Source: Candidatus Eiseniibacteriota bacterium
Lineage (GTDB): Bacteria; Eisenbacteria; RBG-16-71-46; JACRLI01
Length of the DNA stretch: 43,600 nt
Reading direction: 5' to 3'
NCBI GenBank assembly: GCA_025351485.1
Contig: JANXVU010000099.1
Location: 1 to 43,600 of the forward strand
Part shown: in pieces, positions 9,364 to 32,461 of the stretch
Position numbering within the stretch: the first letter of the stretch is position 1
Layout: each line of letters starts with the position of its first letter
Notes under the pieces: model-generated
The model's database searches: none
Told to the model about the DNA's origin: nothing
The model's input: the letters and a program-made list of their open reading frames with translations, nothing else
Program-made: the position numbers and the translations under genes

Positions 9364-9396
9364 GGGGGCGGCAAATCTTGCCGCCCCCTTTTTCTT
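9364..9396 (+). terminator. Rho-independent terminator after the NtrB/NtrC-type pair
   Basis: GGGGGCGGCAA (9364-9374) and TTGCCGCCCCC (9378-9388) form a perfect 11-bp stem with a 3-base loop, followed directly by TTTTTCTT. This is the only fully canonical intrinsic terminator I found in the window. Its stem also contains the GCGGCAA-N3-TTGCCGC dyad proposed as an activator site for the promoter at 9463. Confidence 0.9.
9368..9384 (+). promoter_or_regulatory. Putative flagellar enhancer-binding protein site 1
   Basis: GCGGCAA-ATC-TTGCCGC is a perfect dyad centred at 9376, about 113 bases upstream of the start site predicted from the sigma-54 promoter at 9463. The same GGCA-N5-TGCC core occurs near the other two sigma-54 promoters of the window (15240-15256 and 32445-32461). 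The distance fits an upstream activating sequence. It is embedded in the terminator stem, so part of the symmetry may be due to termination rather than protein binding. Confidence 0.5.
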
Positions 9397-9462
9397 ATAG
9401 ATCCATCCCCGCCAAAACCTTACGAGACCCATCTCCGGCATTCCTCGAAGTTGGAATCCCCT

Positions 9463-9477
9463 TGGCATAGCCGTTGC
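9463..9477 (+). promoter_or_regulatory. Sigma-54 (-24/-12) promoter for the receiver-cheR-cheY operon
   Basis: TGGCATA-GCCG-TTGC has GG and GC spaced by ten bases, as required, and differs little from the consensus TGGCACG-N4-TTGC. The predicted start is near 9489, after the preceding terminator and before the first gene. Because transcription would begin near 9489, the in-frame TTG at 9474 cannot be the start of the next gene. Confidence 0.75.
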
Positions 9478-9521
9478 GAACCAATCCACCGGAGGATGCC
9501 CATTCCACGGAGGGAAGGCCA

Positions 9522-9887
9522 CTGACCATTCTAATTGTTGAGGACGAGGCGGCGACCGCCTGGGCCCTGTCGTTGAGGTTCCAGGACGAAGGTTACGAGG
9601 CGCTCACCGCCCCGTCCGCGGAAAAGGCCCTGGAGATGATCCGGGCCCGCCACTTCGATGTGGTGGTGGCCGACCTGCGCCTTCCGGGCATGAGCGGGGT
9701 GGACCTGATCCGCCGGCTGGCCCGGCGCAAGCGGGTCATCCCGGCCATCGCGGTCACCGCGGACGGCACGCCGGCCACCCTTCGCAGGGTCCTGGGCGCG
9801 GGCGCACGGCAGTGCTTCCTGAAACCGTTCCAGGTGGAGCGGCTGGTGGAGGGAGTGCACCAGGCGCTCCATGGAGAAGCCGCTTGA
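9522..9887 (+). CDS. Single-domain response regulator (receiver)
   Basis: 121 residues, receiver domain only: acidic residues E7-D8-E9, phospho-acceptor D51 in VVVADLRLPG, the Thr of AVTADG and Lys of CFLKPF. There is no output domain. The start is uncertain. The CTG at 9522 follows GGAGGGAAGG (9509-9518) at good spacing and gives the expected N-terminus just before the first beta strand, while the TTG at 9474 lies inside the sigma-54 promoter. It is the first gene of the operon and overlaps cheR by four bases. It may be a phosphate shuttle or sink for the nearby kinases. Confidence 0.75.
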   Translation: MTILIVEDEAATAWALSLRFQDEGYEALTAPSAEKALEMIRARHFDVVVADLRLPGMSGVDLIRRLARRKRVIPAIAVTADGTPATLRRVLGAGARQCFLKPFQVERLVEGVHQALHGEAA

Positions 9888-10720
9888 GCTTTACCGCGGT
9901 CACGGCCGGATCCCGGCTCAAGGCTAGTCCGCAGGACTGGGGCGCGCTTCGAGACTTCGTGCACGAACGCACCGGCGTCTACTACAACGACGCCTGCCTC
10001 GGGCTGCTGGTGTCCAGGCTGGAGCCGCGGTTGAAGTCCCCGGACGCCCGGGGAGCGCAGGACCTGCTCCTGCGGCTGACCTACGACACTTCCGGCTCGG
10101 AGATGGTTCCGCTCTTCGACCTGGCCGCGCCCCACGAAAGCAGTTTCCTGCGCGAGCCCGAAGCGCTGGAGGCGCTCACGACGGAAATCCTGCCGGCCTT
10201 CCGGGAGCGCGGGACGGCGCGCATCTGGAGCGCCGGGTGCGCGGCCGGCGAGGAACCCTATTCGATTCTCTACCAGGCCGGTTCGGCCGTCGAGCTGCAC
10301 GGGATCCGCCTGGAGGTTCTGGGAACCGACCTTTCGCCCCAGTGCATCGCCCAGGCGCGCCGAGGCGAGTATCGCGAGGCCTCTCTCCGGAATATCCCGG
10401 CCGAACGCAGGGAAGAAATCCTGGATGGATCGCCCCCGATGTATCGAGTGCGCCCCCGTTGGATGGAAGGCGCCCGCTTCGAGAGCCGGAACCTGATCGA
10501 GGCTGCTCCGGGGCCGGAGAACGCGTTTGACGTGATCTTTTGCCGGAACGTCCTGATCTACTTCTCGGACGGGGCGCGCCGGAAGGTCGTCGAGATGTTT
10601 CACGAGACCCTGGCCGACGACGGGTACCTGATCCTGGGTCACTCCGAGTCGCTGCACGGGCTCACGCGGGCCTTCAAGCCGGTCACGTTCCGGCGCGGGC
10701 TCGGGTACAGGAAAGACTGA
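9884..10720 (+). CDS. cheR: Chemotaxis protein methyltransferase CheR
   Basis: 278 residues. It has an N-terminal CheR_N helical domain (about 10-75; LRDFVHERTGVYYND) and a SAM-dependent methyltransferase domain with IWSAGCAAGEEPYSI, VLGTDLSPQCIAQARRGEY, FDVIFCRNVLIYF and YLILGHSESL. CheR methylates glutamates on chemoreceptors. The TTG start overlaps the previous stop (TTGA) and follows GGAGAAG at 9873-9879. No cheB, cheA, cheW or receptor gene is in the window, so its partners must be elsewhere. No TPR extension is present. Confidence 0.88.
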   Translation: MSFTAVTAGSRLKASPQDWGALRDFVHERTGVYYNDACLGLLVSRLEPRLKSPDARGAQDLLLRLTYDTSGSEMVPLFDLAAPHESSFLREPEALEALTTEILPAFRERGTARIWSAGCAAGEEPYSILYQAGSAVELHGIRLEVLGTDLSPQCIAQARRGEYREASLRNIPAERREEILDGSPPMYRVRPRWMEGARFESRNLIEAAPGPENAFDVIFCRNVLIYFSDGARRKVVEMFHETLADDGYLILGHSESLHGLTRAFKPVTFRRGLGYRKD

Positions 10721-10733
10721 AAGGATGGAACGG

Positions 10734-11120
10734 ATGTCCAATCTGGTTCTGGTGGTGGACGACTCGCCGGCCGTGCGCAAGTTCGTGGCGTTCACGCTGC
10801 GCATGGTGGGGTGCCGGGTCATCGAGGCGATGGATGGCCAGGATGGCCTCGAGCAGCTGGCGAGGCACCCCGACACCGCGCTGGTCGTGACCGATCTGAA
10901 CATGCCGAACATGGACGGACTCAGCCTGATCCGTTCGCTTCGGGAATCGGCCACTTTTGGCACGGTGCCCATCATCATTCTCTCGAGCGAGCAGGACGCA
11001 CCGGTGCGCGAAGAGAGCCTCACGGCAGGCGCCAACGCCTACCTGGTGAAGCCCTTCAGCCCCGGCGCATTGCAGGAAGCGGTGGAGCCGTTCCTCGGCC
11101 CGCTGCGGAAATCGGCCTAG
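10734..11120 (+). CDS. CheY-like response regulator
   Basis: 128 residues, receiver only. Acidic pair D9-D10, phospho-acceptor D54 in VVTDLNMPNMDG, LSSEQD and the conserved Lys in YLVKPFSPGAL are all present. The NMPNMDGL pattern and location after cheR suggest a true chemotaxis CheY acting on FliM, whose N-terminal CheY-binding motif is intact (gene at 28670). The ATG at 10734 has AAGGA (10721-10725) at proper spacing; the in-frame ATG at 10725 is an alternative start. The next gene follows after nine bases. Confidence 0.82.
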   Translation: MSNLVLVVDDSPAVRKFVAFTLRMVGCRVIEAMDGQDGLEQLARHPDTALVVTDLNMPNMDGLSLIRSLRESATFGTVPIIILSSEQDAPVREESLTAGANAYLVKPFSPGALQEAVEPFLGPLRKSA

Positions 11121-11129
11121 GAGGCTGGA

Positions 11130-11450
11130 ATGCTGTCGATCGAATCGCTGCTGGGATGGACGAGCCGGCCGGAGGCTGCGAACGCCCCCGGACCCCCTCT
11201 GCACGAAGAGTTGGACGACACCGCGCGCCACGTGGCGCGCCGCGTGATCGCCGACACCCTGCCGCGCCTGGACGAGACGCGGCGGCTGGTGATGGCGCTC
11301 TACTACTACGAGGAGCTGACCCCGGACGAAATCGCCTCGGCGCTCGGGCTGCCCGCGCCGCATGTGCAGGCCATCCGCCTGGAGACGGTCGCGATGTTGC
11401 GCCGCGAGATCGAACTGCGAATCGGCCGCAAGGCCGGGGGCCTGGCTTGA
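11130..11450 (+). CDS. Free-standing sigma factor region 4-like protein
   Basis: 106 residues. About 50-100 resembles region 4 of sigma-28: LPRLDETRRLVMALYYYEEL, then TPDEIASALGLPAPHVQAIR and LETVAMLRREI. It lines up closely with the C-terminus of FliA in this window (LVIALYYFEEMTLREIGETL). Regions 2 and 3, needed for core and -10 recognition, are absent, and residues 1-45 are not like them. It is therefore not a functional sigma factor by itself. It could bind FlgM or -35 DNA, or act as a coactivator; this is inference. The ATG at 11130 has AGGAGG just upstream. The stop overlaps the TTG of the next gene. Confidence 0.75.
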   Translation: MLSIESLLGWTSRPEAANAPGPPLHEELDDTARHVARRVIADTLPRLDETRRLVMALYYYEELTPDEIASALGLPAPHVQAIRLETVAMLRREIELRIGRKAGGLA

Positions 11451-12724
11451 ATCCCCGCGCGTGGTGCCTGCTGGCGGCGCTGGCCCTGTTTCCGGCCACT
11501 TCCCGAGCGCAGGGCCAGGAGGCCATGGAGCCCGAAGTCCACGCCGTGGGCGACACGGTGGTGGTCGAAGTCCGCGGCCCGAAGCCGTTCCGGATCTCGC
11601 GCACCCGCACGCCCGACCGGTTGGTCCTGGACTTCCCCGGGCCTGCCATGGACGGCTACGGTTACTACCCCCGAACCAAGTCCCTGGACTTCGCCAACGT
11701 GGTGGCCCTGCGCCGCGGCCAGTTCGACGACGACCACGGCACCCACGCAAGGCTGACCCTGGTGCTGGCCAAGCCCCTGCAGTACCGCCTGGTCTGGTCC
11801 GAAACCGCCGGGACGATCTACTTGGCCGGCGGCAACACGAAGGATGATCCCACCGCAGCCGAAGCAGGCGCCCCCACGACGGCAAGCCGAAAGGCGACGC
11901 CGTCGGAGAGGATGGCCGCACACAAGGACGCCAACACGCCCCATGCGCCGCGCGAGCGGCGCTCCACGCCGCCAAACGGCGGCGACGAGCAGTCGGCCCC
12001 GCGCGCGGCCCATCCCGCCGGTTCGGCGCAGCCGGACCGCGCCGGTAAGGCCGCGCTCAGGCCAGACTCCCAGCGCACCGCCAAAGCCGCCAAGGAGCCC
12101 ACGCCCGCAGCGACGCTCTCCGGCGTGGCCGCAAGCCTGACGAAGAACGACCTGGAGTCCGCCAACGCCGCGCTCAACCAGCTTCGTTCGCAGCAGACCG
12201 GCGAGAAACTGGCGCCTTTGTTCGCTCAACTCGCCCTCAAGGAGACCGAGCGCAAGATCGACCCCGCCCGCGTGGAGCGCCACGCCCGCGAGGCCCTGGT
12301 GGCCGGCTACGAGGATGTGAAACTGGACCTGTCCATGGGCCGGGCGCTCGACCGCCAGAAACGCGCAGCCGAGGCCGGCCGGTGGTTCCGCCGCGCCACC
12401 CAGATCGGCACCGACCCCGGGCGAACCGACGACAACCGACGCATGGCGTATTTCCTGTGGGCCGACGCCCTGTACCGCACCGGCCGCCCGGCCGACGAAG
12501 TGCTGGCCGCCTACGAGGAGGCCATGGAAGCCTATGCGTCCGCGCCGGAGACGGCCTGGGGCCTCTACCAGAGGTCGAAGCTGCAGATGCGCCTGGGCCA
12601 CGAGGCTGGAGCGCGGGCCCTGGCCGCCGACCTGGTGCGGCGATTCCCCAGCGACTACTGGGCCTCCCAGGCCCGCGAGCGCCTGGGCCCCCTGGCTTCG
12701 CTGCAAGTCGAGGCGGGCCGATGA
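11447..12724 (+). CDS. Exported AMIN-domain protein with TPR-like C-terminal repeats
   Basis: 425 residues from a TTG overlapping the previous stop (TTGA). A clear signal peptide (WCLLAALALFPATSRAQG) predicts export. About 30-125 is an AMIN-like beta domain (VVVEVRGPKPFRISRTRTPDRLVLDFPG), a fold that binds cell-wall or envelope components. Residues 125-225 are a Pro/Ala/Arg/Lys-rich linker. About 225-425 is helical with Sel1/TPR-like repeats (AAEAGRWFRRATQIGTD; VLAAYEEAMEAYASAP). AMIN proteins help localise envelope machines, so a role in flagellar placement or secretin-like assembly is possible, but not shown. Confidence 0.72.
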   Translation: MNPRAWCLLAALALFPATSRAQGQEAMEPEVHAVGDTVVVEVRGPKPFRISRTRTPDRLVLDFPGPAMDGYGYYPRTKSLDFANVVALRRGQFDDDHGTHARLTLVLAKPLQYRLVWSETAGTIYLAGGNTKDDPTAAEAGAPTTASRKATPSERMAAHKDANTPHAPRERRSTPPNGGDEQSAPRAAHPAGSAQPDRAGKAALRPDSQRTAKAAKEPTPAATLSGVAASLTKNDLESANAALNQLRSQQTGEKLAPLFAQLALKETERKIDPARVERHAREALVAGYEDVKLDLSMGRALDRQKRAAEAGRWFRRATQIGTDPGRTDDNRRMAYFLWADALYRTGRPADEVLAAYEEAMEAYASAPETAWGLYQRSKLQMRLGHEAGARALAADLVRRFPSDYWASQARERLGPLASLQVEAGR

Positions 12725-13884
12725 TCGCCCCCGGCAGGGAGTCTCCTTTCTGGCCGTCCGAGCCGGAGATGGATCGACGGCTGAACCAGGCCGAGACCGA
12801 GATCCACCTGCTGCGCGGGCAGCTTCGCCGCCTTCTTGCCGAGAGCGGGGACTTTCACCTGCTGGTCGGCCGGGTGCTGGAAGCGCTTCCGGTTGGGCTG
12901 GTGCTCACGGGCCCGGACGGGCAGATCCGCAGCGTCAACCGCGCCGCCGAGGACCTGCTGGGGGTCGAGCGCGGCCAGGCCCGGGGACGCGCCTACTCCG
13001 ATGTTTTTTCTCCGCGGTCCTCGCCGCCAGACCGGTTGCGCGCGGGCGGCGGCCCGCCCACGACGCTGGAGTGCGCCAGGGAAGGCGCCACTTCGGCCCA
13101 CCTCGATTCGGAGGTCTTCTGGATTGACGGCGCGGCGGGAGAGGCGCTGGGCGCCGTGGAAATGCTGACCGATCGCACCGAGACGCGCCGCCTTTCCAAA
13201 GAACTCGAGGAGCAGCGCAGCCTGGCCGCTCTGGGCCGCATGGCCGCGGTGGCCGCGCACGAGATCCGCAATCCGCTCGGCGGGATCACCGGGTTCCTGG
13301 ACCTTCTGGAACGGGAGATCGAGCCGGGCGACCCGCGCCGACGCCACACCGCGCGCATCCGCCAGGGCGCCGAGGCGCTGGAGCGCCTGGTGGCCGGATT
13401 CATGGAATTCAGCCGGCCGATGGAGGATCTGCGCGTCCGGCTGGACCTTCGGGAGATTGCCGAGCTGGCGGCGCTGGACCTGCGGCCGTTGGCCGAAAAG
13501 CTTGGGAACACCCTGGTGCTGAGCACATGCAAGCGGCCGGCGCTGGTCTCGGGCGACCCGCAGCGCCTGCGGGGCGCGGTGGCCAACCTGGTGCGGAACG
13601 CGATCGAAGCGACCGGGGCCGGCGGGACCGTCACGATCCGCGCGCTCGCCGGCAGGAAGCCCGCGATCACCGTGGAAGACGAGGGCCCGGGTGTGCCCGG
13701 GGAGATCCGCGCCCGCATGTTCCAGCCGTTCGTCTCCGGAAAAGCCCGTGGAACCGGGCTTGGACTGGCCCTGGCCGCGCGCGCGGCCGAGGCGCACGGC
13801 GGATCACTTCGATTTCAAGACCGGCGGCCCCACGGCACGCGTTTCGTGCTCGCGTTGCCCGCCCTGGAAATGGAGGTTCGATGA
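12721..13884 (+). CDS. PAS domain sensor histidine kinase, FlrB/FleS-like
   Basis: 387 residues. N-terminal coiled coil (about 18-45), PAS domain (about 50-150; VLEALPVGLVLTGPDGQIRSVN), H box AVAAHEIRNPLGGITGFLDLL with phospho-acceptor His180, then N box (AVANLVRNAIEAT), G1 (VEDEGPGV), F region (MFQPFVSGK) and G2 (GTGLGLALAARA). No membrane segment is seen, so it senses a cytoplasmic signal, as FlrB and FleS do. The ATG overlaps the preceding stop, and its own stop overlaps the regulator ATG. Placement directly before an FlrC-type activator and the flgB operon supports a flagellar role. Confidence 0.85.
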   Translation: MIAPGRESPFWPSEPEMDRRLNQAETEIHLLRGQLRRLLAESGDFHLLVGRVLEALPVGLVLTGPDGQIRSVNRAAEDLLGVERGQARGRAYSDVFSPRSSPPDRLRAGGGPPTTLECAREGATSAHLDSEVFWIDGAAGEALGAVEMLTDRTETRRLSKELEEQRSLAALGRMAAVAAHEIRNPLGGITGFLDLLEREIEPGDPRRRHTARIRQGAEALERLVAGFMEFSRPMEDLRVRLDLREIAELAALDLRPLAEKLGNTLVLSTCKRPALVSGDPQRLRGAVANLVRNAIEATGAGGTVTIRALAGRKPAITVEDEGPGVPGEIRARMFQPFVSGKARGTGLGLALAARAAEAHGGSLRFQDRRPHGTRFVLALPALEMEVR

Positions 13885-15302
13885 AACCCCGTGCGCTGGT
13901 GCTGGACGATGAGCCGCTGATGCGGGAGTTCCTGGCCGAAACCTTGCGTTCTTCGGGATTCGTGGCCGAGGCCTATTCCGATCCGGTCGAGGCGCTCCGC
14001 GAATGGCCCCGGCTGAATCCGGACGTGGCATTCCTGGACCTGCGCCTTCCCGGCACCACCGGCGTGGAAGTGATGCGCGAGGCCCGCTCCGCGGGCAGCC
14101 GGGCGGCGTGCGTGCTCCTGACCGCTTTCGGAAGCGTGGAGACCGCCGTGGCGGCGCTCAAGGAAGGCGCCGAGGACTACCTGATGAAGCCGTGCCCCGC
14201 GGACCGGATCGAGCAGGCCGCGCTGCAGGCGCTCAAGGTCGCGCGCCTGCAGCGGGACAACCGCCGGCTCCGCGAGACCGTGCGCGAGAGCTCCCGCGGG
14301 GGCGGCATGGTGGGGCAGGACCCGTCCTTCCGCGCCATCCTGGAGCAGCTTCCCACGCTGGCGCGCAGCCGGGCCACGGTGCTGCTGACCGGGGAGAGCG
14401 GGACGGGCAAGGAACTGGTTGCACGCGCCCTGCACGATCTGGGGCCGCGTTCCGAGGGGCCGTGGGTGAGCATCAACTGCGCGGCGCTCCCGGAGTCGCT
14501 CCTTGAGAGTGAGTTGTTCGGGCACGAGCGCGGCGCCTTCACCGGCGCCTCTTCGCGCCATGCGGGCCGATTTGAGCAGGCCCACGGCGGAACCCTGTTG
14601 TTGGACGAGATTTCGGAAATCCAGCCGGGCCTGCAGGCCAAGCTGCTGCGGGCTCTCCAGGAGCGGGAGTTCTTCCGCCTGGGCGGGACCGAACCCGTGC
14701 GCGTGGACGTGCGCGTGGTGGCCACCAGCAACCGCGACATGCGCGCGATGGTGCAGCGCGGCGAATTCCGGGCGGACCTGTTCTACCGGTTGAACGTGCT
14801 GGCGCTTCGCCTGCCGCCGCTCAGGGAGCGCCCGGGGGACATTCCGCTGCTCGCCGCGAGCTTCCTGAAGCGCGCCGGCCTTGAAACCGGCCACGAGCTC
14901 ACCGCGATCAGCCCGGCGGCCCTTGAAATGCTGTGCGCCCACCACTGGCCCGGAAACGTGCGCGAGCTGTACAACTGCATCGAGCGGGCCGCGGTCTTCG
15001 CCAAGGGTCCGGTGCTGGAGTCCGCCGATTTTGCGCTCGAGCCGGCCTCCCCGGTTCGCCGCGATGTGTTCGACCTGGGAGAGCTGGAGCGCGACGCCAT
15101 CGTGGCCGCGCTGCAGGCCACCGGAGGGCACCGCGAGCGCACCGCCCGAATCCTGGGGATCAGCGTGCGCACCCTGCGCAACAAACTCTCGCAGTACCGC
15201 GAGTCCGGGCTCATGACGGCGCAAAACTTGCCGCCCGATGCGGCAAATTTTGCCTCGGTCCCCGCGCCGCGCCTTCCCGCCCTGCTCCGGCCGGCCGCCT
15301 AA
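13881..15302 (+). CDS. Sigma-54-dependent flagellar response regulator, FlrC/FleR-like
   Basis: 473 residues. The receiver domain has D9-D10 and phospho-acceptor D53 (VAFLDLRLPG). The AAA+ domain has Walker A GESGTGKE from residue 171, a canonical GAFTGA loop at 218-223, Walker B GTLLLDEISEI, and the FRADLFYRLNVLALRLPPLR segment. A Fis-type HTH follows (ERTARILGISVRTLRNKLSQYR). A 30-residue Pro/Ala tail comes after the HTH. The DNA encoding this tail contains the dyads proposed as its own binding site, about 129 bases before the flgB start site. It probably activates rod, hook and export genes. Confidence 0.87.
   Translation: MKPRALVLDDEPLMREFLAETLRSSGFVAEAYSDPVEALREWPRLNPDVAFLDLRLPGTTGVEVMREARSAGSRAACVLLTAFGSVETAVAALKEGAEDYLMKPCPADRIEQAALQALKVARLQRDNRRLRETVRESSRGGGMVGQDPSFRAILEQLPTLARSRATVLLTGESGTGKELVARALHDLGPRSEGPWVSINCAALPESLLESELFGHERGAFTGASSRHAGRFEQAHGGTLLLDEISEIQPGLQAKLLRALQEREFFRLGGTEPVRVDVRVVATSNRDMRAMVQRGEFRADLFYRLNVLALRLPPLRERPGDIPLLAASFLKRAGLETGHELTAISPAALEMLCAHHWPGNVRELYNCIERAAVFAKGPVLESADFALEPASPVRRDVFDLGELERDAIVAALQATGGHRERTARILGISVRTLRNKLSQYRESGLMTAQNLPPDAANFASVPAPRLPALLRPAA
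15228..15256 (+). promoter_or_regulatory. Putative flagellar enhancer-binding protein site 2 (overlapping dyads)
   Basis: TTGCCGC (15228-15234), GCGGCAA (15240-15246) and TTGCC (15250-15254) give two overlapping dyads. The pair at 15240-15256 reads GCGGCAA-ATT-TTGCCTC, matching site 1 at 14 of 17 positions. Its centre (15248) is about 129 bases upstream of the start predicted from the sigma-54 promoter at 15351. It lies inside the 3' end of the FlrC-like gene. A hairpin with a short T-run could also form in RNA, so weak termination is an alternative. Confidence 0.55.
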
Positions 15303-15350
15303 CCATCAGCAGCACAAAGACTTCCAAAACAGACCCGGTCCGCCGGAACA

Positions 15351-15365
15351 TGGCACGTCACTTGC
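15351..15365 (+). promoter_or_regulatory. flgB: Sigma-54 (-24/-12) promoter for the flgB operon
   Basis: TGGCACG-TCAC-TTGC is a perfect match to the sigma-54 consensus with correct GG-N10-GC spacing. It lies in the gap between the FlrC-like gene and flgB. Predicted start is near 15377, leaving a leader of about 40 bases before the flgB ATG at 15417. This rules out the in-frame ATG at 15369. Confidence 0.88.
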
Positions 15366-15416
15366 GATTTGCATCTCCGGAGGATTGGAACCCCATCCCG
15401 GACTGGAGCCAGGCGC

Positions 15417-22230: not shown

Positions 22231-23798
22231 AGCCATCGCCGCCGCTGCCGGTCGCCACTGCCCCGAAGCCCGCCGTGCCTTCCGGCGCGAGCGCGCGCCG
22301 GGGAGGAGTGGAAGGCGCGTTCGATGCGGCGCTCGGCGCCGCCTCGAACGGCTCCGCTGCGCGCGTGGATCCGGGCGCCCGGCCGCAGCTGCCCATCGCC
22401 CCGGAGATTCCCGTGAAGGCCGGGCGCCCCGCGCGCCGTGCCGAGGATTCCCCGACGGGCCCCGTGGCCGTGCCGGCCGCTGGCCTGCTGGGCGTGGCGA
22501 TGAGGGCGCAGGCCCCCGATGCAGCGTCGTCCGCCACTGAGGCGGCAGGAACGAACGGCAGGTCCGGACAACAGAATTCAACCGCGCCGGCCGGTGCTGC
22601 GCCCGCGGAACCCGGCCAGCCGCAGCCCGGTGCGGCGGAAACCAGGGACGCGCAGATGAACGGCGATGCGAAGGCACCGGTCGATGCGATCGCACCGGTC
22701 GATACGAAAGCCGCGGGCGATGCGAAGGCGATGACTGGAAATCCGGACGCGAAGACCGCCGCGCAGGGACCTGGGCCGACCACGCCGGCCGGCCCCGACA
22801 CGCCCGCCGAATCGGCCACGCCACTCGAGCCCGTAAAGAAGACCGTGACCCGGCGGGGAGAAGCCTCGACCACGCCGGTACGGATGGAAGACCCGGTCCC
22901 GGCGGCCGCGGAAAACACCAACGACGTCCAGAACGCGCCCGGGTCGCGCGCGGCGCTCCACGCCCGCGCGGCCGCTTCGCCCCGTTCCGAACTGGCCGAG
23001 GCGATCGCCCAGCGCGCCGCCGCGGAGGTGCAGGAGATGCATGCGGCGCCGCTGCAGGGCGCAGCCGATCACGCCACTTCCAGGACTCCGAAGCACGAGG
23101 CGGCTCCCGCCGGAGCTCCGCGGTTCGCGGGCCCCGCGCCCGCCGCCTCCGCGGAGAACTCATCGCACGCGAACCCCGACGCATCGGGCCCGCACCAGGA
23201 TCCCGCCTCGCCTTCGGCCCCCCGGGCCGGGGACGAGGCACGCTCCGCGGTGCCGTTCGAAGCGGGCATCGCAGGCCGGGCCCACGCTCCGGAAGCCGGT
23301 GGGACGGCCTCGACCACCGCCGGCCGCGCATCCGCTTCCGGCCCGGCCACGGCTCCGGCGGCTTCCGCCGCGCCGCCGGCGGCCCCGCACGCGGGGGCGG
23401 TCAAGATTTTGGACCAGGTGATCCAGCAGCTCCAGATCAAGCAGCTGGGACCGGAGACGATGCGGGCCACGGTGCGCCTGAATCCCGAGAGCCTGGGCCA
23501 GGTGGAAATCCGGATCGAGATGCAGAACGGGCATCTGCGCGCACACTTCGTGGCCGCCAGCCCCGAGGTTCGCGAGGCGCTCCGGCAGCACCTGCCGGAG
23601 CTCGAAAGGGCACTCGCCGCGGGCCGTGGTTCGCTGAGCTCGCTCAGCGTCGACGTGGGCCGGCAGGGCGAGCAACCCGGCAACCAGTTCATGGATTCCA
23701 AGCCGGCCCGCATGAAGCGGGCCCCAGGCGCGGCGGATGTCGCCGCGCATCCGGACCCGAGGCCGCGCAGGGACAGCGGCCTGGATCTCTACGCGTAG
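22227..23798 (+). CDS. fliK: Flagellar hook-length control protein FliK
   Basis: 523 residues. The first about 390 residues are low-complexity, rich in Ala, Pro, Gly, Glu and Asp, including a short tandem repeat near residues 147-170. The conserved C-terminal domain (about 395-480) has VIQQLQIKQLGPETMRATVRLNPESLGQVEIRIEMQNGHLRAHF, then VREALRQHLPELERAL and LSVDVG. This is the Flg_hook domain that switches FlhB specificity. The long disordered N-terminus is expected of a molecular ruler. The ATG overlaps the motE stop (ATGA). Confidence 0.9.
   Translation: MKPSPPLPVATAPKPAVPSGASARRGGVEGAFDAALGAASNGSAARVDPGARPQLPIAPEIPVKAGRPARRAEDSPTGPVAVPAAGLLGVAMRAQAPDAASSATEAAGTNGRSGQQNSTAPAGAAPAEPGQPQPGAAETRDAQMNGDAKAPVDAIAPVDTKAAGDAKAMTGNPDAKTAAQGPGPTTPAGPDTPAESATPLEPVKKTVTRRGEASTTPVRMEDPVPAAAENTNDVQNAPGSRAALHARAAASPRSELAEAIAQRAAAEVQEMHAAPLQGAADHATSRTPKHEAAPAGAPRFAGPAPAASAENSSHANPDASGPHQDPASPSAPRAGDEARSAVPFEAGIAGRAHAPEAGGTASTTAGRASASGPATAPAASAAPPAAPHAGAVKILDQVIQQLQIKQLGPETMRATVRLNPESLGQVEIRIEMQNGHLRAHFVAASPEVREALRQHLPELERALAAGRGSLSSLSVDVGRQGEQPGNQFMDSKPARMKRAPGAADVAAHPDPRPRRDSGLDLYA
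22665..22736 (+). repeat. 18-base tandem repeat inside fliK (four units)
   Basis: Four imperfect 18-base units start at 22665, 22683, 22701 and 22719. The first two, GATGCGAAGGCACCGGTC and GATGCGATCGCACCGGTC, differ at two positions. They encode the six-residue repeats DAKAPV, DAIAPV, DTKAAG and DAKAMT in the disordered ruler part of FliK. Copy-number change would alter protein length in frame. Confidence 0.8.
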
Positions 23799-26239: not shown

Positions 26240-26250
26240 CGATCGAAACC

Positions 26251-26273: not shown

Positions 26274-26324
26274 CGAGGGAGGATGGGGAAGCGGGTCCGC
26301 GAGGGCCCGCGCCCCGAAACCGAC

Positions 26325-26549
26325 ATGATCCATCTGACCAAGCTCAACGGGTCCGAATACGTGCTCAACGCCGACCTCATCGAGTCCCTGGAGAGCACTC
26401 CGGACACCACCATTACCCTGGTCTCCGGCCACAAGATGAACGTGCTCGAGCCGGTGGACGAGGTGGTGTCCCGGATCGTCGAATACCACCGGCAGGTGTT
26501 CCAGGGGCCGTTCGTCCTGAAGCGCGCGTCGGGAGACCCGGAACACTAG
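26325..26549 (+). CDS. flbD: FlbD/SwrD family motility protein
   Basis: 74 residues starting MIHLTKLNGSEYVLNADLIE, then SLESTPDTTITLVSGHKMNVLEPVDEVVSRI. This is the FlbD (SwrD) pattern, found between flgE and motA or fliL in many phyla. In Bacillus the homologue raises swarming power by acting on stator function. An in-frame ATG at 26283 has GGGAGG directly against it with no spacing and would add 14 non-family residues. I choose 26325, although its own ribosome-binding site is poor. It is unrelated to the Caulobacter regulator also called FlbD. Confidence 0.87.
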   Translation: MIHLTKLNGSEYVLNADLIESLESTPDTTITLVSGHKMNVLEPVDEVVSRIVEYHRQVFQGPFVLKRASGDPEH

Positions 26550-26580
26550 AATCTCCACGGAGGGAGAGGAGCCTTAGACC

Positions 26581-27357
26581 ATGGATATCGCGACCGTAGG
26601 TGGCCTGGGACTGGCCGTGGTCGCCGTGCTGGTGGCGTACCTGATGGAGGGCGGCAGCCTCGCGGCGATCTTCGTGCCGTCGGCCATGATCCTGGTGCTG
26701 CTCGGCACCATCGGGGCCGCCACCGTCACCACGTCGTTCCGGACGGTCATGAACCTGCCGACCTACTTCAAGATCGCCTTCTTCGACGATCACAAGGACC
26801 CGGTGGAGCTCATCGACATGATCGTCTCGCTGGCCGAAAAGGCCCGCCGCGACGGGCTGCTTCCGCTGGAGGCGGAGGCCAAGAAGATCAAGGAACCGTT
26901 CTTGAAAAAGGCGGTCGAGCTGGTGGTGGACGGAACCGACCCCGGCGTGACCCGCACCATTCTTGAAACCGAGATCAACTTCATCTCCAGCCGGCACAAG
27001 GAGGGCGCCACCTACTTCGGCAAGCTGGGCGGGTTCGCGCCCACCCTGGGCATCATCGGGACGGTGCTGGGGCTGATCCACACCCTGGGTAACACCAGCG
27101 ACGCCAGCAAGATGGCCGAGTCCATCGCGGCCGCCTTTATCGCCACGCTGTGGGGAGTGGGATCGGCCAACCTGCTTTATCTGCCGATCGGGGACAAGCT
27201 CAAGGTCCGCCACGAAGAAGAGCAGCTGTACCTGGAGGTGGCCCTCGAGGGGGTGATTTCCATCCAGGCTGGTGAAATCCCGCGCGTCATCCGGACCAAG
27301 TTGATGTCTTATCTGGCGCCGAAGGAACGCACCGAACCCCAGAAGAAAGCGGCCTGA
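26581..27357 (+). CDS. motA: Flagellar stator protein MotA
   Basis: 258 residues with four membrane helices (about 5-20, 28-48, 150-172, 180-200). Key motifs: the cytoplasmic loop EKARRDGLLPLEAEAKKIKEPFLKKAVELVVDG, and helix 3, GGFAPTLGIIGTVLGLI, with the conserved proline, then AAAFIATLWGVGSANLLYLPIGDKLK. MotA and MotB form the proton- or sodium-driven stator. GGAGGGAGAGGAG precedes the ATG. It overlaps motB by one base. Confidence 0.95.
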   Translation: MDIATVGGLGLAVVAVLVAYLMEGGSLAAIFVPSAMILVLLGTIGAATVTTSFRTVMNLPTYFKIAFFDDHKDPVELIDMIVSLAEKARRDGLLPLEAEAKKIKEPFLKKAVELVVDGTDPGVTRTILETEINFISSRHKEGATYFGKLGGFAPTLGIIGTVLGLIHTLGNTSDASKMAESIAAAFIATLWGVGSANLLYLPIGDKLKVRHEEEQLYLEVALEGVISIQAGEIPRVIRTKLMSYLAPKERTEPQKKAA

Positions 27358-28103
27358 TGAAGAAGCGCCACCACGAGGCGGAGCATGAAAATTCAGAGCG
27401 CTGGCTCCTGACCTATGCCGACCTAATTACGCTCCTGCTGGCGTTTTTCATCGTTATGTACTCCATGTCGCAGGTGGACGCCAAGAAGTTCGGGGCCATG
27501 AGCACGGCCCTGAATCGGATCCTTTCGGGCGGGGGACTTCTGCTCAAAGGGGAATCCGGCACAACAATTGCTGCTCAGCAGAGTTACGCACCCGTGGAGG
27601 GCGACAACTCCAGGCTGGTGATGGCCGACCTGGTAACGGAAGTGCGGAACCATCACCTGGTCAACAAGGTGAAGATCCGGCGCGACGCCCGCGGGGTGGT
27701 CCTGTCGCTGAACGAAAAGGTCCTGTTCCCTTCCGGGAGCGCGGAGCTGGGCGATTCGGCCCGGTCGCTCCTGGACACGTTGAGCACGCTGGTCTCCAGG
27801 CTGCCCAACGAGGTCCGGATCGAAGGGCACACCGACAACGTGCCGATCCACGGCGGACGTTACGATTCGAACTGGGAGCTCTCGGCCGCGCGCGCCACTT
27901 CGGTGGTGCGCTTCATGATCGAGCACCACCTGTTGCCGCCTTACCAGCTTTCCGCCGCGGGCTATGCCGAGTTCCGGCCGCTCGCGCCGAACGACAGTCC
28001 GGAAAACCGGACCCTGAACCGCCGAGTGGATTTCGTGATTCTATCCGCCGCCCCGCCGATTCCGGTGGAGGCGCCCAGCCAGGGAGAGACGCATGGCCGA
28101 TGA
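27357..28103 (+). CDS. motB: Flagellar stator protein MotB
   Basis: 248 residues. One membrane helix (WLLTYADLITLLLAFFIVMYSMS) with the ion-binding Asp at position 22 and the conserved TYADL(I/M)TLLL motif. The OmpA-like peptidoglycan-binding domain (about 105-225) has LFPSGSAELGDSARSLLDTL, VRIEGHTDNVPIHGG, NWELSAARATSVVRFM and NRRVDFVI. It anchors the stator to the cell wall. The start overlaps the motA stop (TGATG), and the 3' end overlaps fliL by 11 bases. Confidence 0.95.
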   Translation: MKKRHHEAEHENSERWLLTYADLITLLLAFFIVMYSMSQVDAKKFGAMSTALNRILSGGGLLLKGESGTTIAAQQSYAPVEGDNSRLVMADLVTEVRNHHLVNKVKIRRDARGVVLSLNEKVLFPSGSAELGDSARSLLDTLSTLVSRLPNEVRIEGHTDNVPIHGGRYDSNWELSAARATSVVRFMIEHHLLPPYQLSAAGYAEFRPLAPNDSPENRTLNRRVDFVILSAAPPIPVEAPSQGETHGR

Positions 28104-28626
28104 ACCCAAGGCCCCCGCAGCGAAGCCCGAGGCGGCCAAGTCCGAGGCGGGCAAGCCGGAGGCACCGAAGAAGCCGGGCGGCCCGCTCCAGATGATCCTG
28201 ATCGCCGTGGGCGGACTGGTGGTGGTCGCCGGCATCGCGGGCGCGCTGCTGGTGTTCGTGGTTCTGCCCAGGCTGAATCCGCCCAAGGAGGTGAAGAAGG
28301 TCGTGGTTTCGGAGGCCGAGCTGGGCCCGACCGTCCCGATCAAGGACATGGTGATCAACCTGGCCGACGCCGACGAGGTGCATTACCTGAAAATCGGGCT
28401 CGCGCTGGAGATGAAGGACAAGAAGTTCAAGGCCGAGGAGTTCGCGGCCCGGGACCCGCAGATCCGCGACCTGGTGATCACCGAGTTCAGCCGCCACACC
28501 GTCAAGGAAGTGAATTCGGCCGTCGGCCGCGAGCACATCCGCGGCGAGTTGCTCAAGAAGCTGAACGATGCCGTCGGGGGAGCGCCCCTGAAGACCATCT
28601 ATTTCACCGAGTACGTGGCCCAGTAG
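28093..28626 (+). CDS. fliL: Flagellar basal body-associated protein FliL
   Basis: 177 residues. A Lys/Ala/Pro/Glu-rich cytoplasmic N-terminus (1-30), one membrane helix (about 33-56; MILIAVGGLVVVAGIAGALLVFVVLP) and a periplasmic domain with the FliL pattern (GPTVPIKDMVINLADADEVHYLKIGLALEM, then IRDLVITEF and IRGELLKKLNDAV, ending VYF-type IYFTEYVAQ). FliL surrounds the stator and supports high torque. The ATG lies inside motB. A GNRA-loop hairpin separates it from fliM. Confidence 0.9.
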   Translation: MADEPKAPAAKPEAAKSEAGKPEAPKKPGGPLQMILIAVGGLVVVAGIAGALLVFVVLPRLNPPKEVKKVVVSEAELGPTVPIKDMVINLADADEVHYLKIGLALEMKDKKFKAEEFAARDPQIRDLVITEFSRHTVKEVNSAVGREHIRGELLKKLNDAVGGAPLKTIYFTEYVAQ

Positions 28627-28636
28627 CGGGGAGCCG

Positions 28637-28654
28637 CCCGGGCGCGAGCCCGGG
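28637..28654 (+). other. GNRA-loop hairpin between fliL and fliM
   Basis: CCCGGGC (28637-28643) and GCCCGGG (28648-28654) form a 7-bp stem closed by GCGA, a GNRA tetraloop. There is no T-tract after it, so it is not an intrinsic terminator. The fliM ribosome-binding site (GGGGAGAAG) lies just downstream, so it may block exonucleases or set relative expression. Confidence 0.4.
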
Positions 28655-28669
28655 ACCAGGGGAGAAGTC

Positions 28670-29641
28670 ATGTCGGGCATTCTAAGTCAGGACGAAATTG
28701 ATGCGTTGATGAGCGCCGTGTCCAGCGGGGACCTCGCGGTGTCCCCGGCGGACTCGGCATTCGGCGCCCAAAACGTCCAGCCGTACGACTTCCGTGCGCC
28801 CAACCGGATGAGCAAGGAAAACCTCCGCTCGCTCACCTCGGTGCACGAATCGTTCGCCCGGCTCCTGGCCAACAACCTCTCGGGGTACCTGCGGTGCATC
28901 GTGGAGACCTCGCTGGTCTCGGTGACCAACGTGTCGTTCGCGGAGTTCCAGCAATCGCTGCCGAACCCCAGCGGGATCACGGTCCTGAACGCCCCACCCT
29001 TCGAAGGCCCGGTGGTCCTGGAAATGAACCTGCCGCTGCTGGTGGCGATGATCGACCGGCTGTTTGGCGGCCCCGGCACTCTCGGGCAGGACGGCCGCGC
29101 CCTGACCACGCTGGAACAGACGGTGATCCAGAAAATCGTGCGGCGGGTGCTGCCGGAACTGGCCGAGGCCTGGAAGTCCATCGTGCCCATCGTGCCCGAT
29201 ATCGAACTTTTCGAGAGCAATCCCCAGTTCGTGTCCACCGCTTCCCCCGGGGACATGGTGGTGTTTGCCTCGATGGAAATCCAGCTTCCCAAGGCCTCCG
29301 GATTTGCCTCGCTGTGCTACCTGCACCGCGACGTCGAGGACGCCCTGCACCGCAGCGGCAGCTCGCACGGGGCCAACGTGCGACAGAAGCGTCCCACGCC
29401 GATCCCGGCCGAATCCTGGCGTGCGGGGATCGCCCCGACTACGCTCGACCTGGCCGGCATCCTCGGCACCACCACCATCCGGGTGGGCGAGTTGCTCGAT
29501 CTGCGGGTGGGGGACGTGCTTCGGCTGGACAGCAATCCTTCAGGAGATGTGCCGGTGATGGTGGCCGGTGAAGAGAAGGCCCGGGCGCGGCTCGGACGCA
29601 TCGGGCGCCATCGCGCGCTCGAAATCACCGCGCTGCACTAG
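28670..29641 (+). CDS. fliM: Flagellar motor switch protein FliM
   Basis: 323 residues. The N-terminal CheY-binding motif is intact (GILSQDEIDALMSAV). The middle CheC-like domain carries YDFRAPNRMSKENLRSLTSVHESFARLLANNLSG, EFQQSLPNPSGITVL and MNLPLLVAMIDRLFGGPG. The C-terminal SpoA domain follows (VGELLDLRVGDVLRLDS). FliM sits in the C ring between FliG and FliN and receives CheY-P, which fits the CheY at 10734. GGGGAGAAG precedes the ATG. Confidence 0.95.
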   Translation: MSGILSQDEIDALMSAVSSGDLAVSPADSAFGAQNVQPYDFRAPNRMSKENLRSLTSVHESFARLLANNLSGYLRCIVETSLVSVTNVSFAEFQQSLPNPSGITVLNAPPFEGPVVLEMNLPLLVAMIDRLFGGPGTLGQDGRALTTLEQTVIQKIVRRVLPELAEAWKSIVPIVPDIELFESNPQFVSTASPGDMVVFASMEIQLPKASGFASLCYLHRDVEDALHRSGSSHGANVRQKRPTPIPAESWRAGIAPTTLDLAGILGTTTIRVGELLDLRVGDVLRLDSNPSGDVPVMVAGEEKARARLGRIGRHRALEITALH

Positions 29642-29671
29642 GCGCGAGCGCCAAGCAGGAAGGAGATTCTC

Positions 29672-30097
29672 ATGGACGAAAGCCAGAAGAACCCGACCGG
29701 GGCGGAGGGGCTCGTGCCGGACAGCGCCGACGCGCTTTCGGTGGCCCAGGCCGAGCACGAAGAAGAGGCCGCTCAGGCCCCGCCGGTGGCGAGGGTCGTG
29801 GAACTGCCCGTCCTGGATCCGGGCCATGTTTCCTCGGCGCCCCGCAGCATCGACCTGCTGCTGGACGTGGAACTGCCGGTGACCGTAGAACTGGGCCACA
29901 GCCAGATGGCGATCAAGAGCATTCTCGAGCTGGGCATCGGCTCGGTGGTTCGCCTGGAGAAGATGGCCGGAGATCCGGTGGACGTGCTGGTGAACGGCAA
30001 GCTGGTGGCCCGCGGCGAAGTGGTGGTGGTGGACGAGAACTTTGGCGTGCGCATCCTCGGGCTGGTCGATCCGGACCAGCGGCTGGGCACGCTTTGA
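29672..30097 (+). CDS. fliN: Flagellar motor switch protein FliN
   Basis: 141 residues. The N-terminal 50 residues are acidic and flexible. The SpoA/FliN domain covers about 60-141: LLLDVELPVTVELGHSQMAIKSILELGIGSVVRLEKMAGDPVDVLVNGKLVARGEVVVVDENFGVRI, a textbook FliN core. No CheC-type phosphatase domain is fused to it, so it is FliN rather than FliY. It lies at the base of the C ring and docks FliH. GGAAGGAG precedes the ATG. The stop overlaps the fliO TTG. Confidence 0.95.
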   Translation: MDESQKNPTGAEGLVPDSADALSVAQAEHEEEAAQAPPVARVVELPVLDPGHVSSAPRSIDLLLDVELPVTVELGHSQMAIKSILELGIGSVVRLEKMAGDPVDVLVNGKLVARGEVVVVDENFGVRILGLVDPDQRLGTL

Positions 30098-30579
30098 AAT
30101 CGGCACTGAGGTTCCTGGCCGGGGCGTCCTCGCTGCTTCTTGCGGCGACGGCGCGCGCCACGAACCTGACCTACACCGATCCGGTGCCGCCGCCCATGCC
30201 TTCGATGGCCGGGCTGCTGGCCCGGACCGGCATCGCGCTGGCGCTGGTGGTGGGCCTGATCTACGCCACGGCGTGGATGCTTCGCCGGGCCCAGGCGGGC
30301 ACCGGCCTCCGGTCGCCCCGCAAGTCCCGCGAGCCGGTGGCGGTGGAATCCCACGTGGCCCTGGGGCCGCGACGGTCCCTGTATTCGGTGCGCTGGGGCA
30401 AGTTCCGGCTGTTGCTCGGAGCCGGCAGTTCGGAGATCTCGCTGCTGGCCTCCGAGTGGGCCGAGGGCGAAACCGCCTCCGAGCCCCAGGCGGAGCTTCC
30501 GGATGCCGCCAGCTTCGGCCGGCATCTCGACGATTTTCTCTCAAGGCTGGGACGGGTGGAAGATGAACCGCGCTCTTAA
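30094..30579 (+). CDS. fliO: Flagellar biosynthesis protein FliO
   Basis: 161 residues, TTG start overlapping the fliN stop (TTGA). A probable signal or membrane segment lies at 5-22, a main membrane helix at about 40-62 (GLLARTGIALALVVGLIYATAWML), then the small cytoplasmic FliO beta domain (VAVESHVALGPRRSLYSVRWGKFRLLLGAG). FliO is poorly conserved and is a chaperone for FliP. The single helix plus the LGPRRSLYSV pattern and the fliN-fliP position make the call good. It overlaps fliP by 17 bases. Confidence 0.85.
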   Translation: MKSALRFLAGASSLLLAATARATNLTYTDPVPPPMPSMAGLLARTGIALALVVGLIYATAWMLRRAQAGTGLRSPRKSREPVAVESHVALGPRRSLYSVRWGKFRLLLGAGSSEISLLASEWAEGETASEPQAELPDAASFGRHLDDFLSRLGRVEDEPRS

Positions 30580-31342
30580 AGGAATCCTCCTGGTGGCCCT
30601 GCTGGCGGCTTTCGCGCCGGCCCTCGCGCACGCCCAGGGGGCGGCTTCCACCGGGGCCGCGTCCATCGCCTTGCCCAAGATTACGCTGGGAGTGGAGCAA
30701 TCCCATTCGCCCGGCCAGGTGAGCACGTCCCTGCAGTTGCTGCTGCTGTTCAGCGTCCTGTCGCTGGCCCCGGCGCTCCTGATCATGCTGACCTCGTTCA
30801 CCCGGATCATCGTGGTGCTGTCGTTCCTGAGGCAGGCCATGAGCACCCAGCAGATGCCCCCCAACCAGGTGCTGATCTCGCTGGCGCTGTTCCTGACCTA
30901 CTTCATCATGGCCCCGGTGTGGAACCAGATCAACGACAAGGCCGTCGCCCCGCTGCTGGCCGGCAAGATCAACCAGGCCCAGGCGCTGCAGGTGGGCTCG
31001 GTGCCACTGCGCGAGTTCATGCTGCGCCAGACGCGCGAAAAGGACCTGGCCCTGTTCGTGAGCCTCTCGCACATGCCGGCCCCGAAGAACGCCTCCGAGC
31101 TGCCCATGTCCACCGTGATCCCGGCGTTCATGATCAGCGAGCTGCGCACCGCTTTCCAGATGGGCTTCGTGATCTACCTGCCGTTCCTGATCGTGGACAT
31201 GGTGGTCTCGAGCGTGCTGATGTCCATGGGCATGATGATGCTGCCGCCGGCCATGATCTCGCTGCCCTTCAAGATCCTGTTGTTCGTGCTGGTGGACGGA
31301 TGGCACCTGATCGTTCGCTCTCTGGTGATGAGCTTCCGGTAG
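30563..31342 (+). CDS. fliP: Flagellar export gate protein FliP
   Basis: 259 residues with a cleavable signal peptide (ILLVALLAAFAPALAHAQG) and four membrane helices. Family motifs: LSLAPALLIMLTSFTRIIVVLSFLRQAM, QMPPNQVLISLALFLTYFIMAPV, FMISELRTAFQMGFVIYLPFLIVDMVVSSVLMSMGMMMLPP and ISLPFKILLFVLVDGW. FliP forms the core of the FliPQR export gate. The ATG at 30563 starts the signal peptide directly. An in-frame ATG at 30503 would place extra charged residues before it. Confidence 0.96.
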   Translation: MNRALKGILLVALLAAFAPALAHAQGAASTGAASIALPKITLGVEQSHSPGQVSTSLQLLLLFSVLSLAPALLIMLTSFTRIIVVLSFLRQAMSTQQMPPNQVLISLALFLTYFIMAPVWNQINDKAVAPLLAGKINQAQALQVGSVPLREFMLRQTREKDLALFVSLSHMPAPKNASELPMSTVIPAFMISELRTAFQMGFVIYLPFLIVDMVVSSVLMSMGMMMLPPAMISLPFKILLFVLVDGWHLIVRSLVMSFR

Positions 31343-31355
31343 GAGGGAAGGAACC

Positions 31356-31622
31356 ATGACGCTGACCGAAGCCGTGGCCCTGTTCAAGCAGGCCCTCTGG
31401 ATGACCGTGATGCTGTCCGCGCCCATGCTGCTGTTCGGGCTGGTCGCGGGGCTCGTGGTCAGCATCTTCCAGGCCGTGACCCAGATCCATGAAATGACGC
31501 TGACCTTCATCCCCAAGGTGCTGGCCGTGGTGGTGGCGCTGGTGCTGTTCCTGCCCTGGATGCTGGCGCAGATGACCACCTACACCACCAACCTCTACAT
31601 GAGCGCGGCCCGGCTCCACTAG
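31356..31622 (+). CDS. fliQ: Flagellar export gate protein FliQ
   Basis: 88 residues, two membrane helices (about 15-38 and 52-72). Motifs AVALFKQALWMTVMLSAPMLLFGLVAGLVVSIFQAVTQIHEMTLTFIPKV are diagnostic for FliQ. It packs around FliP in the export gate. GGAGGGAAGG precedes the ATG. It is separated from fliR by three bases. Confidence 0.95.
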   Translation: MTLTEAVALFKQALWMTVMLSAPMLLFGLVAGLVVSIFQAVTQIHEMTLTFIPKVLAVVVALVLFLPWMLAQMTTYTTNLYMSAARLH

Positions 31623-31625
31623 CCG

Positions 31626-32396
31626 ATGGACCAGGCGCTGTTTCTCACCATCCAGGGCTTCATGCTGGCGTTCGTGCGCGTGGCGGGCATCCTGGGTTCG
31701 GGGCCCTTCTTCGGCGGACGCAACGTGCCCACCATGTTCAAGGCGGGCGCGTGTTTCTTCATCACGCTGCTGGTGCTGCCCAGCGTGCACCTGGCCGCCT
31801 CCCAGATCCCGACCTCCGTCCTGGGGCTGATGCTCACGGTGCTGCGCGAAGTGTCGGTGGGGCTCGCGGTGGGCCTGATGGCGCAGTGCGTGTTCTCGGC
31901 CATCCAGATGGCCGGCGAGCTGCTCGGCCTGCAAATGGGCTTTTCCATGATGAACCTGCTGGACCCCAGCACCGGCGCCTCGGTTCCGGTGATCTCCGAA
32001 CTCTACAGCCTGTTCGCCATGCTGGCCTTCTTCCTGCTCGATGCGCACCACCTGTTCGTGCGCGGGGTCTTCGAAAGCTTCCAACTGGCCCCGCTGGGCT
32101 CGACGGCGCTGAACCCGGCGGTGGTTGCGACGCTGGCCGCCGCGGTCGGAAGGATCTTCGTGATGGCCCTCGAGCTCGCGGGCCCGGTGATGGCGGCGCT
32201 GTTCCTGGCCGACGTGGCGCTGGGCCTGGTGGCCCGCACGCTTCCGCAGATGAACATCTTCAACGTCGGATTCCCGATCAAGATCGTGCTGGGCCTGGTC
32301 ACGCTGGGCGCGACCCTGCCCATCCTCATGTCCGCACTTTCCCGGCAGTTCTCCTCGATGGAGCCCGCGATCCGCCAACTCCTGCATGGCATGTAG
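31626..32396 (+). CDS. fliR: Flagellar export gate protein FliR
   Basis: 256 residues, about six membrane helices. Motifs: FVRVAGILGSGPFFGGRNVPTMFKAG, LREVSVGLAVGLMAQCVFSAIQMAGELLGLQMGFSMMNLLDPSTGASVPV, and ALGLVARTLPQMNIFNVGFPIKIVLGL with the conserved PQ-N-x-F-x-x-G-x-P-x-K. It completes the FliPQR gate. The last codons contain the -24 part of the sigma-54 promoter for flhB, so the end of this gene has a double use. Shadows in another frame are not coding. Confidence 0.95.
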   Translation: MDQALFLTIQGFMLAFVRVAGILGSGPFFGGRNVPTMFKAGACFFITLLVLPSVHLAASQIPTSVLGLMLTVLREVSVGLAVGLMAQCVFSAIQMAGELLGLQMGFSMMNLLDPSTGASVPVISELYSLFAMLAFFLLDAHHLFVRGVFESFQLAPLGSTALNPAVVATLAAAVGRIFVMALELAGPVMAALFLADVALGLVARTLPQMNIFNVGFPIKIVLGLVTLGATLPILMSALSRQFSSMEPAIRQLLHGM

Positions 32397-32401
32397 CTTG
32401 C
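32387..32401 (+). promoter_or_regulatory. flhB: Sigma-54 (-24/-12) promoter for flhB-flhA-flhF-flhG-fliA
   Basis: TGGCATG-TAGC-TTGC matches the sigma-54 consensus with GG-N10-GC spacing. It overlaps the last three codons of fliR. The predicted start near 32413 leaves a leader of about 78 bases before the flhB TTG, holding a hairpin and a GGCA-N5-TGCC dyad. Confidence 0.82.
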
Positions 32402-32425
32402 GTTAACAGAGGGAGATTGCATTCC

Positions 32426-32449
32426 GCCCGGCGCATTCCCGCGCCGGGC
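32426..32449 (+). other. Strong leader hairpin upstream of flhB
   Basis: GCCCGGCGC (32426-32434) and GCGCCGGGC (32441-32449) form a perfect 9-bp stem with the 6-base loop ATTCCC. It lies in the flhB leader about 14 bases after the predicted start. The right arm overlaps the left half of the proposed activator site at 32445. No T-tract follows, so termination of the fliR transcript here would need a factor. Confidence 0.6.
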
Positions 32450-32461
32450 AGAAATTGCCGC
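32445..32461 (+). promoter_or_regulatory. Putative flagellar enhancer-binding protein site 3, downstream of the promoter
   Basis: CGGGCAG-AAA-TTGCCGC shares GGCA-N5-TGCC and the right half TTGCCGC with sites 1 and 2. It is centred about 40 bases downstream of the predicted start. FlrC and FleR-type flagellar activators are known to work from sites downstream of sigma-54 promoters, so the location is acceptable. A second imperfect dyad, TTGCCGCC-TGTC-GGCGCCAA, overlaps it at 32455-32474. Confidence 0.45.

Follow-up and report, generated by a model that had tools for sequence, protein, structure and literature searches.

The question raised by this 43.6-kb stretch of Candidatus Eiseniibacteriota DNA, referred to here as the window, is whether a palindrome with the core GGCA-N5-TGCC, which accompanies each of its three sigma-54 promoters, serves as operator for the FlrC-like activator encoded in the same stretch (13881-15302) and thereby defines a flagellar regulon, as the original prediction proposed. 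From the analysis described below, the dyad is very probably the operator of the genome's own FlrC-like activator and, in the form of about CGGMA-N5-TKCCG, most likely acts as an enhancer bound by this response regulator. Judged by gene neighbourhood and conservation, the proposal stands at flgB, extends to flgF on another contig, is plausible at the first of the three promoters and uncertain at the third.

In the window, where all features discussed lie on the forward strand, the dyads occupy 9370-9382 (GGCAAATCTTGCC, site 1), 15242-15254 (GGCAAATTTTGCC, site 2) and 32447-32459 (GGCAGAAATTGCC, site 3), and the corresponding -24/-12 elements begin at 9463 (TGGCATAGCCGTTGC), 15351 (TGGCACGTCACTTGC) and 32387 (TGGCATGTAGCTTGC); these three are the only matches to TGGCAYR-N4-TTGC in the 43.6 kb. 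The positions given earlier for all three dyads and all three elements are exact, and so are the offsets relative to the predicted starts (-113, -129 and +40), whereas the match between sites 1 and 2 covers 15 of 17 positions and not 14. Each promoter indeed has its dyad, but two further copies, at 23584 and 36560, lie without a promoter, and a weaker second dyad centred at 15226, 22 bp upstream of site 2, had been overlooked. The five copies of the loose motif in the window compare with 1.85 +/- 1.31 expected, a count that 4 of 100 shuffles reach: they are marginally above chance and constitute weak evidence.

Far more informative is the comparison with order- and class-level relatives. Upstream of flgB (16 regions) and flgF (15 regions) we scored all 3072 dyads with arms of 4 bases and spacings of 1-12, tolerating one mismatch, without a seed and with dinucleotide shuffles for comparison. 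GGCA-N5-TGCC was the top dyad at flgB, where it occurs in 15 of 16 regions against 4.2 expected, and also at flgB and flgF taken together (25/31 versus 7.5; z 8.1, the largest z of the shuffles being about 4); the second-ranked dyad, GGCA-N7-TGCC, is a product of the sigma-54 box itself. A tandem partner lies 12-25 bp away at 22 of the 31 promoters of the relatives, with 0.9 expected, and the own genome has such pairs at flgB (15226/15248) and at flgF (4949/4968 on contig C135). A matrix fitted to the flgB and flgF regions of the relatives, with the own genome excluded from training, yielded the consensus given above and ranks 9369 (19.5), 15241 (18.9) and 32446 (17.0), that is, sites 1, 2 and 3, first to third in the window; the flgF site on C135 scores 17.2. 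Comparing the same promoters in related genomes, as the original prediction had suggested, thus bears it out at flgB, where the dyad is conserved; its claim of one regulon at all three promoters is less secure, with a counterpart of site 1 in one of three relatives and none of site 3.

Could the dyads nevertheless be chance palindromes in GC-rich DNA? In pattern searches of the own genome (3.44 Mb), the loose motif behaves as this explanation would have it: 70 copies stand against 100 of a reversed control pattern and the excess in the window is marginal, so that the motif by itself proves little and was dropped as stand-alone evidence; it is its position that stands out. Among the 50 of the 70 copies that were listed, 5 fall in the interval from -270 to +70 bp around a sigma-54-like element, with about 0.25 expected by our own estimate (the genome has 35 such elements). 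Three of these had prompted the hypothesis; those at C135:4943 and C78:4762 had not. The strict form GGCAA-N3-TTGCC is found at four places in the genome, three of which are followed by a sigma-54 element at a distance of 80-156 bp: site 1 (before the flrBC-containing gene run), site 2 (flgB) and C135:4943 (flgF-flgG), while the fourth copy is intragenic, in a ribosomal RNA pseudouridine synthase-like gene. C135:4943, which lies outside the window, precedes the sigma-54 box TGGCACGGCCGTTGC (C135:5112) by 156 bp, and the genes that follow this box read as flgF and flgG; further down the contig, an upstream open reading frame reads as flgL and is followed by a csrA-like gene (from the sequences, not from a family search). 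The degenerate core GGMAA-N3-TTKCC was tried and set aside as not specific by itself (25 places in the genome, three of them near a sigma-54 box). Considering location and conservation together, namely the strict form, the dyad scan, the matrix, the tandem pairs and a gene-blind scan, chance is a highly improbable explanation overall and is strongly disfavoured for flgB and flgF.

The gene-blind scan covered 47 genomes of the class and looked for the dyad followed by a sigma-54 box at 75-135 or 136-196 bp; the places found were then identified by comparison with the flagellar proteins of the window. They comprise seven flgB, five flgF, three probable fliL and two FlrC-like activator genes, site 1 and eight others, one of them a four-copy repeat; with the reversed control, the numbers of matches were 4 and 3. 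Matches at a PilB-like gene (G017) and at three places without assignment were treated as background, and those in G040, four near-identical repeats, were set aside. The probable fliL, which is not among the targets in the window, has the dyad and a sigma-54 box in three order-level relatives (L233, L235, L244) and, judged from its open reading frame, sits after a flgE-like gene. The two FlrC-like activator genes belong to two genomes (L224, L225; G018:C63, G019:C295) that carry up to three overlapping dyads and a sigma-54 box directly before the gene, arranged as for autoregulation; no match to flgF, flgC or flhB was found in these two. For annotation, the matrix offers a way of finding flgB and flgF promoters without gene calls.

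Which protein, then, would bind the dyad? The FlrC-like activator (13881-15302) combines a conventional receiver (DDE near the N terminus, D in FLDLRLPG, K in LMKPC) with a sigma-54 AAA+ domain, in which GAFTGA stands at residue 218, and a Fis-type helix-turn-helix (LGISVRTLRNKL). Besides many other sigma-54 activators, its AAA+ domain matches FlrC of Vibrio cholerae (chains 4qhs and 6lua), and its gene lies beside that of a PAS/HisKA/HATPase kinase (12721-13884), the pairing of the FlrBC/FleSR type. Against the NCBIfam FlbD model NF050807 (equivalog) the protein scores 376.5 bits, below the curated cut-off of 750, and it is therefore not filed as FlbD. The recognition helix LGIS-x-RT-x-RNKL is kept in the FlrC proteins of those relatives in which the gene directly precedes flgB. 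Site 2 (CGGCAAATTTTGCCT, 15241-15255) lies in the coding tail of flrC, and its partner, site 2b (GCGCAAAACTTGCCG, 15219-15233; matrix 13.0, rank 5 in the window), is 22 bp away from centre to centre; sigma-54 promoter 2 (TGGCACGTCACTTGC, 15351-15365) follows before flgB (15417). The flrC tail NLPPDAANFA, after the helix-turn-helix, is encoded by the operator sequences of sites 2b and 2 themselves, while in relatives flrC mostly ends sooner after this domain and the operators lie after the gene. Site 2 is not an intrinsic terminator, as it lacks a T tract, the full stem of sites 2b and 2 being followed by TCGGTCCC. Because the motif is conserved and in tandem where flrC directly precedes flgB, and because it matches the site of FlbD and of its Desulfovibrio homologue DVU1063, there is good support at flgB (site 2) and flgF (C135:5112) for its assignment as a predicted FlrC operator.

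A second activator of the same general architecture, which we call EBP1 (7778-9313, start tentative; receiver, AAA+ domain with GAFTDA, Fis-type helix-turn-helix with LGISRQTLRTKL), could be a rival owner of the operator or an upstream regulator. It adjoins site 1, its recognition helix is related (LGISRQTLRTKL), and in four relatives its counterparts keep their position, preceding flrC by several kb. Yet the dyads flank flgB/flgF next to flrC in six order-level relatives (G002, G006, G008, G012, G015 and G020), and the limited stretches of these six show no separate EBP1 counterpart, although it could lie elsewhere in them; that the operator belongs to EBP1 and not to FlrC is thus, in our view, unlikely. 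For FlrC itself, several points weigh on the other side. The motif is assigned to it only through gene neighbourhood and homology, and its binding and activation are read from a predicted operator. The genome contains dozens of sigma-54 activator-like candidates (67-69 at first look), so another activator could share the motif. Strong matrix matches also occur without a true promoter, 17.2 at C135:4625 and 18.5 before pyrG; the latter (contig C170, L104) lies beside a sigma-54-like match that we rejected as a false promoter, located inside the start of a CTP-synthase-like (pyrG) frame. Moreover, the relatives are not statistically independent and the matrix fit was initialised with GGCA-N5-TGCC, whereas the scan of 3072 dyads was not. 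To these points come the single counterpart of site 1 in three relatives and the lack of conservation of site 3, two sites that we consider in turn.

Site 1 has a further property: the dyad (9369-9383) is contained in GGGGGCGGCAAATCTTGCCGCCCCC (9364-9388), followed by TTTTTC, which folds into a hairpin with a perfect 11-bp stem, a loop of three nucleotides and a T tract directly after EBP1 (-24.2 kcal/mol, z -4.2). By stem, loop and T tract, this is a strong Rho-independent (intrinsic) terminator of the upstream gene. Does this role suffice, with the likeness to sites 2 and 3 arising by chance? The hairpin's position right after the EBP1 stop would agree with this, and so would the fact that, of three relatives keeping promoter 1, two (G046 and G031) have no matching site. 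The third, however, has one at the equivalent promoter (G028; 14.2), the sigma-54 box of promoter 1 (TGGCATAGCCGTTGC, 9463-9477) lies 80 bp from site 1, and a random hairpin of this geometry reaches a matrix score of 17 with a probability of about 0.0003, compared with 19.5 for site 1, so that pure coincidence is unlikely; besides, the roles of terminator and operator are compatible. A terminator and nothing else therefore strikes us as a serious but somewhat doubtful explanation. We favour a double role with moderate confidence, and tentatively, a shade ahead of the terminator alone, propose that the palindrome terminates the EBP1 gene as RNA and serves as DNA as the FlrC enhancer of the run containing flrB and flrC. 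As an FlrC operator site 1 is plausible but unproven; if the proposal holds, the end-of-gene signal and the feedback signal would be the same 25 bp. A possible partner dyad at 9349-9361, 21 bp upstream of site 1, is suggestive by eye and was rejected with a matrix score of -5.7. In two relatives the counterpart of EBP1 is likewise followed by a sigma-54 box (TGGCATAGGCATTGC, TGGCACAGGCATTGC), and a third has a variant of the box there. In G028, the promoters of flgB and after EBP1 (L188, L118) apparently have an altered -12 element, TGGCAC-N5-TTTC.

At flhB, the promoter is better supported than the dyad. Sigma-54 promoter 3 (TGGCATGTAGCTTGC, 32387-32401) spans the stop codon of fliR ahead of flhB (32490), and site 3 (GGGCAGAAATTGCCG, 32446-32460) lies at about +40 from the predicted start. 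Six relatives keep the sigma-54 box at flhB (L202-L206, L215), five of them as TGGCATGTAG[CG]TTGC, a shared sequence that takes in bases beyond the fliR stop; since the box straddles this stop, promoter and upstream gene overlap. The upstream regions of flhB in 14 relatives, including the six with the box, hold no counterpart of site 3, which weighs against a common operator, and GGCA-N5-TGCC is not enriched there (4/14 relatives versus 4.1 expected), which makes this set a negative control. Site 3 may accordingly be a chance match in the flhB leader, with another activator, possibly EBP1, driving flhB through promoter 3. Its left arm is in addition common to a separate inverted repeat (GCCCGGCGC...GCGCCGGGC), and the export genes of V. 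cholerae are controlled by FlrA and not by FlrC (PMC3930126). On the other hand, site 3 is the third-best matrix site of the window, lies near a promoter, and would have a parallel in the downstream sites ftr2 and ftr3 known for FlbD. We regard the two possibilities as evenly balanced, and site 3 as an operator remains uncertain at even odds. Downstream FlbD sites under these two names were reportedly described by Mullin and Newton in 1993, going by the title of that work. Other dyads shared upstream of flhB (AGAT-N4-ATCT etc.) were set aside, as they lie inside the fliR coding sequence, and the regions scanned revealed no operator shared by promoters 1 and 3 that might be a site for EBP1. The boxes at 9463 and 32387, whose link to FlrC is less clear, read TGGCAT, and those of the clear targets at 15351 and C135:5112 read TGGCAC; given the small numbers, this split is possibly due to chance.

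How does this arrangement relate to known systems? The site of Caulobacter FlbD has been given as CCCGGCAxxxxxTGCCGGG (quoted in PMC3333781), and the window sites share with the ftr elements of C. crescentus the same dyad, the same N5 spacing and the GC-rich flanks; they likewise lie at flagellar sigma-54 promoters, those of flgB and flgF in the own genome and in relatives and that of flhB in the own genome only. FlbD, too, is a Fis-type sigma-54 activator of flagellar genes with sites up- or downstream of the promoter. It is similar to FlrC and FleR but has no cognate kinase (PMC7064773) and is controlled by FliX (PMC7064773, PMC3096577), whereas the protein in the window is encoded next to an FlrB-like kinase, has conventional receiver residues and scores 376 in the FlbD model versus a cut-off of 750. 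For the FlbD homologue DVU1063 of Desulfovibrio vulgaris, DAP-chip yielded the motif GGCAxxxxTGCC at flagellar sigma-54 promoters (PMC3333781), printed with four spacer bases where the window dyads have five; in contrast to the FlrC-like protein, the receiver of DVU1063 is atypical, and many targets of this regulator are non-flagellar. With the two-component pairs FlrB-FlrC of V. cholerae and FleS-FleR of Pseudomonas the window system shares the kinase-activator organization and, as V. cholerae FlrBC drives the flgB, flgF and flgK operons (PMC7064773), the class of its predicted target genes. The motif of the FlrA-like DVU2894, YGTCA-N6-TGACR (PMC4641369), is also a palindromic operator of a flagellar sigma-54 activator, but differs in half-site and spacing and is not the window motif. 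Overall, the system is FlrBC-like in its signalling and FlbD-like in its operator. The original prediction had argued from FlrC/FleR and FlbD sites in general; it had not stated the equality with the published consensus. The operator type is already known, and what is new is its lineage and its place beside an FlrBC-type pair: a known control scheme is extended to a new lineage, and no new mechanism is involved.

On the basis of sites that adjoin sigma-54 boxes, are conserved and in tandem at flgB and flgF, and match the FlbD-type consensus, the following course of events can be envisaged. The adjacent FlrB-like kinase would phosphorylate FlrC, which would bind, in the form of adjacent dimers, to the pairs of dyads located 80-160 bp before the promoter; its AAA+ ring would then assemble and open the sigma-54 polymerase at rod and hook-junction operons. 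The targets would be flgB and, outside the window, flgF...flgL; operator evidence for control of rod and hook operons comes from flgB and flgF only. Feedback on the flrBC-containing operon is probable and would act through site 1, and any contribution of site 3 would be conjectural. For a lineage known from sequence only, this provides a flagellar regulon that is open to testing and whose operator is defined. Moreover, an FlbD-type operator beside an FlrB/FlrC-type pair suggests that the DNA-recognition code of these activators predates the divergence of kinase-driven (FlrC) from FliX-driven (FlbD) control.

The gene run between promoter 1 and flrC (9522-13884) comprises genes for a receiver-only protein (9522-9887), CheR (9884-10720), a CheY-like protein (10725-11120), a sigma-70 region 4-like protein (11130-11450), an open reading frame without assignment (11447-12724) and the FlrB-like PAS/histidine kinase (12721-13884). 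As several of these genes overlap and others are closely spaced, the run is probably co-transcribed as an operon. The sigma-70 region 4-like protein, of 106 residues, consists of this domain only, and similar short frames follow EBP1 in two relatives (L187, L188). Elsewhere in the genome, sigma-54-like boxes precede a type IV pilin-like gene and a PilM-like gene (G000:C27 L014, G000:C6 L008), and no clear FlrC-type dyad was seen at these two promoters. At G000:C78:4491-4774 (L026, L027), divergent sigma-54-like boxes are flanked by two genes with haem-binding CxxCH motifs, and the dyad GGCACAGCTTGCC (matrix 10.9) lies between the boxes.

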